From assembly GCA_947493535.1 (NCBI GenBank), contig CANLRK010000008.1, positions 62,001-126,000 on the forward strand: 64,000 bases of DNA. Reading direction: 5' to 3'. Shown in pieces: positions 4,991 to 6,942 of the stretch. Origin of the DNA: an uncultured Flavobacteriaceae bacterium. Its GTDB lineage: Bacteria > Bacteroidota > Bacteroidia > Flavobacteriales > Flavobacteriaceae. The notes beneath the pieces are model-generated. The model searched no databases and was not told the DNA's origin. It worked only from the letters and a program-made list of their open reading frames with translations. Numbering within the stretch: the stretch's first letter is position 1; each line of letters begins with the position of its first letter. The translations under genes were made by a program, and so were the position numbers.

Positions 4991-6235
4991 TTATTTTTCA
5001 AACTCTTTTAAAGTAGTTGTAATAATAGTAACACATTCTAGCAATTGCTCTTTAGTCATAACTAAAGGTGGTGCAAAACGAATAATATTACCGTGTGTTG
5101 GCTTTGCTAATAAGCCGTTATCACGTAAACGCATACAAATATTCCATGCAGTATCACTATCTTCTGTATCATTAATAACTACAGCATTAAGTAATCCTTT
5201 TCCTCTTACTAGAGTAGCTACGGAACTTGTTTCTATAAATTTGTTCATTTCCGCTCTAAACAACTGCCCTAACGTTTCTGCTTTGTCTGCTAAGTTTTCT
5301 TCTTTAACAACCTCTAAAGCAGCTATAGCAACAGCTGCAGCAACCGGATTACCACCAAAAGTACTTCCGTGGTTACCAGGTTTAATTACATCCATAATTT
5401 CATTATTAGCTAAAACAGCAGATACTGGGTATGCTCCACCACTTAATGCTTTCCCTAATATTAAAATGTCAGGTTTTACGTTTTCATGGTCAACTGCTAA
5501 TAACTTTCCTGTACGTGCTATACCTGTTTGTACCTCATCAGCAATAAATAACACATTGTACTTTTCACATAAAGCCTTTGCTCTTGCTAAATACCCTTCA
5601 GAAGGCACATACACACCAGCCTCTCCTTGAATAGGTTCAGCCATAAATCCTGCAATGTTTTTATTACTTGCTAAAACTTCTTCTAAAGCAGTTAAATTAT
5701 CATACTCAATTTTAACAAAACCATTGGTAAACGGCCCAAAGTTTTTACGTGCTACAGGATCGTTAGAAAAAGAAATAATTGTAGTGGTTCTTCCGTGAAA
5801 ATTATTTTCACAAACAACTATTTCTGCCTCATTTTCTGAAAGTCCCTTTTTTTCATAAGCCCATTTTCTACATAACTTTAAAGCAGTTTCTACTGCTTCT
5901 GCACCGGTGTTCATAGGCAATAATTTATCAAACCCAAAAAGATCTGTAGCATACTTTTCATACTTCCCTAACATATCGTTATAAAATGCTCTTGAAGTTA
6001 AGGTTAACTGTTGTGCTTGAGTTACCATAGCATTTACTATTTTTGGATGACAATGCCCTTGGTTAACTGCTGAATACGCCGATAAAAAATCATAGTATTT
6101 TTTTCCTTCTACATCCCAAACATGTACTCCTTCCCCTTTGCTTAACACCACTGGTAACGGGTGGTAATTATGAGCTCCATACTTGTTTTCTAATTCAATT
6201 GCTTGTTGTGACGTTAATTGTTCTAAAACAGCCAT
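4991..6235 (-). CDS. rocD: Ornithine aminotransferase (ornithine-oxo-acid transaminase)
   Basis: A class III PLP aminotransferase of 414 residues. It converts ornithine plus 2-oxoglutarate to glutamate-semialdehyde and glutamate, linking arginine and proline metabolism. The motifs [36 protein letters not shown] and ILGKALSGG (with the PLP-binding Lys) are intact. I favour the ATG at 6235 ([11 protein letters not shown]); an in-frame ATG at 6259 adds eight residues. The gene is preceded by an unusually GC-rich leader (6260-6350). It is divergent from the lipoprotein gene and transcribed alone. Confidence 0.93.
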
Positions 6236-6261
6236 TTTTTCTAATTTTTTAAAATTCATAA

Positions 6262-6350
6262 AATAACCATTCCTGCTGCACCTTTATCCTTCCGATATAA
6301 ACCGAAAATTCAGCGTAGGAGAGAAATCATCCCTAGTAAGAACCGCAAAT
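6262..6350 (-). promoter_or_regulatory. Candidate structured 5' leader of rocD
   Basis: Directly upstream of rocD, about 85 bases are visibly richer in G and C than the flanking A/T-rich intergenic DNA. On the minus strand the segment contains TAGGGATGATTTCTCTCCTA, which can fold with a TAGG/CCTA stem. It also has GCTG and CAGC segments able to pair about 35 bases apart, and a purine-rich stretch just before the start. A box resembling the -7 consensus (CTAATTTG) lies just upstream, so this would be the 5' UTR. I could not match it to any riboswitch class I know. Confidence 0.35.
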
Positions 6351-6396
6351 TAGCAAATCTTAATCAATTTTTAAGATAATATCTGTCAGATTCTTT

Positions 6397-6404
6397 TATT
6401 TTTG
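6397..6404 (+). promoter_or_regulatory. TAnnTTTG promoter box for the DUF6452 gene
   Basis: TATTTTTG matches the Bacteroidota -7 consensus and lies 19 bases before the ATG of the lipoprotein gene. Confidence 0.5.
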
Positions 6405-6423
6405 TTTCATTCAAATTCTTTTT

Positions 6424-6942
6424 ATGAAAAAACTATTTCTTGTTTTTGCAATACTACTCTTTGGCCTTGGCTGTGAAAAAGACGACATCTGTACAGATAC
6501 TAATGCCACAACCGCTAAATTAATTATTCGTTTTTATGATATTGCTACACCAGAAACACCAAAAGCTGTGAATAAACTATTAGTGCAAGGAGTAGATAAT
6601 AATTATACCTACGGAACAGAAAGTACTCGAGACTCTATTGCTATTCCGTTACGCATCCTGGAAAACAATACTTCATACAAACTTATAAAAGACTTTGAAG
6701 TTAATGACAATGGCACGCCAGATGATACTTCTGATGATTTTGCTACAGGAAATGAAGATGTAGTTATAATTAACTACACTAACAATCAAGTATATGTTTC
6801 AAAAGCTTGTGGATTTAAAAATATTTTTACCAACACTAATTTTGGGTTTACTAACGACGGTGATAACTGGATTTTAAATACTACTATTGAAAACTCAACA
6901 ATTGAAAATCAAAACAATGCGCACGTACATATTTTTCATTAG
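6424..6942 (+). CDS. DUF6452 family lipoprotein
   Basis: A 172-residue protein with a lipoprotein signal (MKKLFLVFAILLFGLGC, predicted lipidated Cys17) followed by EKDDIC and a beta-rich domain. This looks like the Bacteroidota family DUF6452. It is probably anchored in the outer membrane facing the periplasm. Its 3' end overlaps the next gene by 26 bases. The next gene encodes a DUF6048 outer-membrane protein, and the two families commonly occur together, suggesting a shared but unknown envelope role. Confidence 0.8.
   Translation: MKKLFLVFAILLFGLGCEKDDICTDTNATTAKLIIRFYDIATPETPKAVNKLLVQGVDNNYTYGTESTRDSIAIPLRILENNTSYKLIKDFEVNDNGTPDDTSDDFATGNEDVVIINYTNNQVYVSKACGFKNIFTNTNFGFTNDGDNWILNTTIENSTIENQNNAHVHIFH

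Follow-up and report, generated by a model that had tools for sequence, protein, structure and literature searches.

A small conserved RNA element is found 5' of rocD genes across the family Flavobacteriaceae, and is predicted to fold into an H-type pseudoknot. Given its strong conservation and its constant position, this RNA very probably acts in cis as a pseudoknot that controls the production of RocD protein. The best overall explanation, to which we assign a probability of roughly 0.5, is that the element serves as a ligand-gated, riboswitch-type regulator of rocD translation. The locus came to attention through a first-pass annotation of the window (the whole 64,000-nucleotide stretch of DNA that was analyzed), which had proposed an unrecognized riboswitch or attenuator, responsive to arginine, ornithine or proline, in a foldable, G+C-rich leader. 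There is good support for the idea of an unrecognized cis-regulatory leader RNA: it is conserved throughout the family, its crossing helices covary, its distance to the start codon is fixed, it is associated almost exclusively with rocD, and it has no Rfam match.

At the window locus, the segment does lie between a promoter-like box and rocD, with both on the minus strand (Table 1). The box is presumably of the -7-like Bacteroidota type, a call that assumes the consensus TAnnTTTG, and the rocD transcript would start approximately 4-8 nt 3' of it, at about 6338-6342. The leader is also richer in G+C than its AT-rich flanks, as had been stated (38.8% at 6260-6339, versus 24% at 6180-6259 and 17-24% at 6340-6439), although it is notable only against these flanks, with nearby coding DNA at 34-44%. 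The limits originally given, 6262-6350, enclose a real leader but are corrected to about 6333-6269. Complementary segments are present as described; however, the window leader folded alone is no better than shuffled sequences on either the minus strand (z = -0.11) or the plus strand (z = -0.37). A single-sequence fold thus does not rise above chance, and the element is visible only through comparison. A DNA search of its own genome with the leader (E ≤ 0.001) returned only the locus itself, and a search of positions 5900-6700 for tRNAs and tmRNAs returned none.

The start of rocD in the window is probably the ATG at 6235 (6235-6233; MAVLEQ), eight codons inside the longest rocD ORF, and not the in-frame upstream ATG at 6259, because the spacing to the element is then 33 nt, as in relatives. 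A divergent gene at 6424-6942 on the plus strand encodes a DUF6452 protein and has its own TATTTTTG box near 6398-6405.

Table 1. Features of the rocD leader region in the window, with predicted pairings
Feature	Position	Strand	Remarks
Element in window	6333-6269 (about)	minus	RNA just 5' of rocD
-7-like box TAATTTG, putative promoter of rocD	6346..6352	minus	Bacteroidota type; from sequence
rocD, ornithine--oxo-acid transaminase	4991..6259	minus	TIGR01885, 671 bits (cut-off 378)
Invariant core GGATGATTTCTCTCC	6318..6332	minus	G1 = 6332 to C15 = 6318; 215/298 family genomes
Core roles: P1 arms G1-A3 / U13-C15; P2 5' strand A6-C12	6318..6332	minus	
Helix P1	6317..6333	minus	Pairs 6333-6317 (G.U in window), 6332-6318, 6331-6319, 6330-6320
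P2 3' strand G-N-AGGAAU	6269..6276	minus	Base 6275 bulged
P2 pairs	6327-6269, 6326-6270, 6325-6271, 6324-6272, 6323-6273, 6322-6274, 6321-6276	minus	
P3, type A extra hairpin UUUUCGG / UCGGAAG	6289..6308	minus	Pairs 6308-6289 to 6302-6295
Loop L3, long type A form	6277..6317	minus	Conserved ACGCUG...GGAUAAAGGU around P3
AU-rich spacer, 33 nt	6236..6268	minus	P2 to probable rocD ATG

The element consists of a core, GGAUGAUUUCUCUCC on the minus strand, followed downstream by AGnAGGAAU. Helix P1 is predicted to comprise pairs G1-C15, G2-C14 and 3-13, plus a pair just outside these (-1/+1) in type A leaders, and in the window form P1 has 4 bp and P2 has 7 bp. The 5' strand of P2 begins within the P1 loop, so the two predicted helices cross and together form an H-type pseudoknot, with an L1 of 2 nt (UG) and an L3 of 2-4 nt upward. 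These loop lengths appear geometrically ordinary for such a pseudoknot. Among 253 distinct leaders, 136 are of type A, including that of the window, and have the conserved ACGCUG...GGAUAAAGGU loop with hairpin P3; the other 117 are of type B. In most type B leaders L3 is 2-4 nt, and many of them have the total length of the minimal copies, 26-30 nt; some type B leaders hold unrelated hairpins in L3. Calculated helix energies are marginal, with medians of -1.1 (type B) and -4.4 (type A) kcal/mol for P1 and near 0 kcal/mol for P2, which suits a gated fold that is completed by a bound partner. Parsimony on the rocD tree (242 of 253 leaders) gives 16 B-to-A and 14 A-to-B changes, and it seems that the P3 module was often gained and lost, that leaders were exchanged, or that the protein tree is noisy.

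The exact 15-mer GGATGATTTCTYTCC is carried by 215 of the 298 Flavobacteriaceae genomes, almost without exception as a single copy, versus 3 of 298 for the reversed 15-mer used as a control (counted from its rows). When 59 relatives were searched at the DNA level, the window leader matched at 70-83% identity in many genera, and the block GGATGATTTCT(C/T)TCC, then AGGAAT, was found 5' of rocD in 19 rocD-holding loci, one of which (L021) has the minimal form of the block. A scan for the core plus AGGAAT was conducted with one genome per species (84,980 species). Among the first 119 matches listed, 115 are directly upstream of rocD, an arrangement shared with metabolite-binding riboswitches, in which a conserved cis-RNA leads a metabolic gene. 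The four matches listed that are not upstream of rocD (L243, L249, L292 and L314) are taken as chance, as are seven further matches away from rocD (L131-L134, L137, L138 and L153); L185 is a rocD locus that was excluded by a distance filter and is not a non-rocD match. Carriers among the matches listed include Tenacibaculum, Polaribacter, Winogradskyella, Kordia algicida, Aquimarina, Lacinutrix, Lutibacter, Arenibacter, Robiginitalea, Gramella and some Flavobacterium, within a family of marine and soil bacteria. One contig filed as a Rhizobium metagenome-assembled genome (L262) has a flavobacterial-type rocD with the leader, and is probably mis-binned.

Protein searches anchored on rocD were run in genomes mostly picked for lacking the exact 15-mer, and found relaxed forms. 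Of 79 anchored loci, 22 match all 13 fixed positions (0 mismatches outside 3/13) and the rest have at least 3 mismatches, which we read as absence of the element. This exact-or-absent split indicates that the core is all-or-none at rocD loci, and that its invariance is not produced by the search pattern.

The only finds outside Flavobacteriaceae were in two small sister families within its order. The strict pattern occurs in 6 of 247 genomes sampled across the phylum, all of them Flavobacteriaceae, and a relaxed pattern occurs in 14 of 196 genomes sampled across the order. Beyond the family, the relaxed pattern is upstream of rocD only in G036 and G051 (family f2) and G038 (f4); the match in G682, from the order sample, is not at rocD. 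A covariance model matched 5 of 295 genomes in the class sample. Three of these matches are outside the family (L214-L216), fall within coding regions or on the strand opposite them, and are taken as chance, L216 being judged through its near identity to L215.

The leader had been called unrecognized, and a search of Rfam 15 bears this out, with no match to it at gathering cut-offs. In the whole window only 3 tRNAs reach these cut-offs; positions 6200-6480 yield three hits of 9-14 bits at E ≤ 10, far below cut-offs, and six relatives yield one 26-bit snoRNA hit at E ≤ 1 (cut-off 100). No description was found in Rfam 15 or in the literature searched, which omitted most subscription papers, and it is within these bounds that the element is undescribed; a 2017 study that reportedly listed 224 candidate RNAs is outside them. 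The main text of PMC9723704 has neither 'rocD' nor 'ornithine', passages of PMC2864571 have neither term, and passages of PMC9788692 concern something different from the rocD leader element. The searches otherwise returned general papers on riboswitches, pseudoknots and transcriptomes.

The first-pass annotation had staked its proposal beforehand on conservation and covariation among relatives, and both are found, with P1 and P2 each covarying. Covariation was scored with a purpose-written script that is R-scape-like but is not R-scape, against 1000 nulls in which column changes were scattered over the rocD tree. Eleven of the 253 leaders with fewer than 100 readable RocD residues (among them L073, the U-A leader) were left out of the tree and one further leader without a parsed P2 strand was left out of the core set, leaving 241; two long-loop type A leaders were left out of the P3 test, leaving 128. 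The summed scores of P1 and of P2 are each reached by 0 of 1000 nulls. The type A hairpin P3 also covaries (0 of 1000 nulls, 128 leaders), whereas sliding its partner by 1-2 bases gives background or weak scores (41-598 of 1000). Percent-paired alone is not significant (65 of 1000 for P2, 72 of 1000 for type A P1).

Among 561 core column pairs, P2 pair 12/-2 ranks first (E 0.003) and is followed by the P1 closing pair -1/+1 (E 0.02), although this pooled value partly reflects the mixture of type A and type B and is not clean (type A is marginal, E 0.07; type B has none, E 15). The P1 pair 3/13 appears as A-U, G.U, G-C or U-A, and is standard in all 22 protein-anchored leaders. Because five of the seven P2 pairs are invariant and A6-U changes in one leader, support for P2 rests on one covarying pair. 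This covariation is confined to type A, and position 12 is invariant in type B. In 20 of the 31 leaders with U12, base -2 is also U, so that pairing is recovered only if the register moves by one base, to the A at -1. In 43 type B leaders, 99.8% of the P1/P2 cells pair, versus 35-72% with the partner slid; this alignment omits 12 of 55 leaders, which had an L3 of more than 10 nt or a repeated sequence. For type A (70 leaders) the figure is 93%; 8 pairs are changed on both sides, whereas shuffles give 3.2 and sliding the partner gives 1-3. All 31 type A leaders with U12 have G at -4 before AGGAAU, and those with C12 mostly have A, C or U; position 12 might make a tertiary contact with -4 and -2, beyond P2.

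A -7-like box is upstream of 216 of the 253 leaders, and in 136 of these its end is separated from the core by 10-12 nt. The spacer between P2 and the rocD ATG measures 28-36 nt in 211 of 252 loci, although its sequence is otherwise unconstrained. For seven of eight apparently shorter spacers, including that of the window, another in-frame ATG is available at 31-34 nt, and most of the longer ones (n = 33) hold inserted hairpins. Such tight spacing with hairpins absorbed points to translation initiation, which is probably the level at which the element acts, and the pattern is that expected if distance is measured from the initiating ribosome. No terminator hairpin with a U run was evident on reading the spacers. 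Between P2 and the rocD ATG, 15 type A leaders share another recurrent segment, about 75 nt long, which has three hairpins, one of them CTCG(N5)CGAG (carriers include L009, L014, L015, L037, L040, L044, L182, L223, L275 and L336). When 10 carrier genomes were searched for this segment, 9 gave matches, for the most part at rocD alone; two had short fragments elsewhere.

Comparison of sequences thus indicates conservation at the RNA level, both crossing helices, the association with rocD and a fixed effective distance to the ATG of about 30 nt. Bacteroidota hardly use Shine-Dalgarno pairing. In the mechanism that we propose, rocD mRNA would open with a small H-type pseudoknot, in which loop bases of the 3-4 bp hairpin P1 would pair with the downstream AGnAGGAAU to form P2. 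Binding of a signal would stabilize or loosen this marginal fold, the likeliest signal being a small molecule from the arginine-ornithine-proline pathway, and closing of the pseudoknot beside the initiating 30S subunit would turn rocD translation up or down. A ligand from this pathway is the best single guess, with about an even chance of being right, and is drawn from the enzyme alone. Genes 3' of rocD (85 loci) yielded no clue to a ligand, and in 62 of the 85 loci no same-strand ORF of at least 100 amino acids begins within 150 nt after rocD. More tentatively, and with the odds somewhat against it, the element might be a new natural riboswitch class with a minimum of 26-30 nt, in which ornithine or a closely related metabolite is sensed through closure of the pseudoknot, and which steers Shine-Dalgarno-independent initiation purely through its fixed distance to the start codon. 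A passage of PMC9723704 is consistent with scant Shine-Dalgarno use in Bacteroidota.

The bound partner could instead be a protein, either RocD itself in an autogenous loop or a dedicated RNA-binding protein, that blocks or permits initiation at the pseudoknot. Invariant exposed bases, marginal stability, the near-exact distance to the ATG, and a nearly strict association with one gene, normally in single copy, all fit such control, and the last also fits RocD autoregulation. However, it is common for a RocD orthologue to lack the RNA (57 of 79 anchored loci, from genomes selected mainly because the exact 15-mer is missing), and we know of no RNA-binding feature of RocD. We regard protein control as unlikely. 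It is improbable that the pseudoknot senses nothing, and is a constitutive element that recruits 30S subunits or S1 in a standby role or guards the mRNA 5' end. Its predicted place a few nucleotides from the transcript start and the fixed effective ATG distance accord with such a role, as does the 5' pseudoknot of Escherichia coli tisB, which is required for S1 and 30S binding (PMC7708055). But a general enhancer would be expected before many genes, whereas nearly all matches precede rocD; the 13 invariant bases exceed the needs of a generic structure; and the tisB standby site is about 100 nt from a sequestered ribosome binding site, whereas the spacer here is about 30 nt and AU-rich.

A peptide attenuator, as one form of the original proposal, is disfavored, and there is very little chance that the NTG within the core opens a mini-ORF (MISLPR* in many type A leaders) through which an amino acid is sensed during translation. 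In 253 leaders base 3 is never C, the bases A, G and T giving ATG, GTG and TTG, and a 6-codon ORF is present in 101 of 136 type A leaders; however, the other 35 do not have it, mostly with TGC replacing the stop, and base 3 covaries with base 13. Codon 4 varies in its amino acid (L, F, P or H) while wobble bases are frozen, without synonymous drift. The frame is not kept, because L3 in type B is mostly 3 or 4 nt and the ORFs end at many lengths. Neither a conserved leader peptide nor a conserved frame with regulatory codons was found. A DNA operator, that is, a transcription-factor site just 3' of the promoter, is the least credible reading, as the GGA N9 TCC inverted repeat, the paired 3/13 changes that could reflect a dimer site and the fairly constant distance to the -7 box are outweighed by G/T at 3/13 (an RNA wobble) in 15 of 22 anchored leaders, by covariation of the crossing pair 12/-2 and of P3 across loops of varying length, and by a tight start-codon spacing that absorbs hairpins and is irrelevant to an operator.

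Where the RNA is absent, a regulatory protein may take its place. A divergent Lrp/AsnC gene is beside rocD in seven loci without the RNA (L079, L080, L081, L083, L086, L088 and L090), versus none of the 22 anchored RNA carriers. All seven are from one genus, g146, which appears to be Flavobacterium, and other members of this genus do carry the RNA. The intergenic regions of these loci contain a TTGACTT...AAGTCAA-like inverted repeat. Judged by its position, the Lrp/AsnC regulator likely controls rocD too, and is likely a replacement for the RNA, seen in this one lineage; it differs in being a protein, with a divergent gene and a repeat, that occurs where the RNA is absent.

As a family-wide, very small and sharply defined orphan cis-RNA tied to one enzyme, the rocD element leads to a short list of candidate ligands. 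The spacing rule with absorbed hairpins provides a concrete handle on how leader RNAs could gate initiation in Bacteroidota. To our knowledge, few RNA sensors have been described for the arginine/ornithine pathway, and the element would add a natural one if it senses ornithine or arginine.

The preQ1-I (RF00522) and SAM-II (SAM-II long loops, RF01726) riboswitches are small H-type pseudoknots in 5' leaders, with a short P1, conserved loop bases and a position close 5' of the start codon; their L3 is variable and can hold an extra hairpin. The rocD element resembles them as a small leader pseudoknot of the same topology, with crossing helices P1 and P2 that covary, a short P1, a variable L3 and a location near the start codon. 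The likeness is one of working and not of membership, and neither family model gave a hit at E ≤ 10 in the window stretch. The rocD element also differs in its conserved letters and in that its downstream gene is rocD only.

Passages of PMC9723704, which maps leaders in Flavobacterium psychrophilum, describe Flavobacteriaceae-wide 5' elements without Rfam hits, and the rocD element is like these in its 5' location, family-wide distribution and absence of Rfam hits. In E. coli, the pseudoknot near the 5' end of tisB mRNA, which encodes one toxin, acts on translation initiation (PMC7708055). The rocD element is similar in having a predicted pseudoknot near the mRNA 5' end that probably works at the level of initiation, with an ATG spacing compatible with standby, but is unlike tisB in its 30-nt AU-rich spacer and its family-wide sequence invariance.
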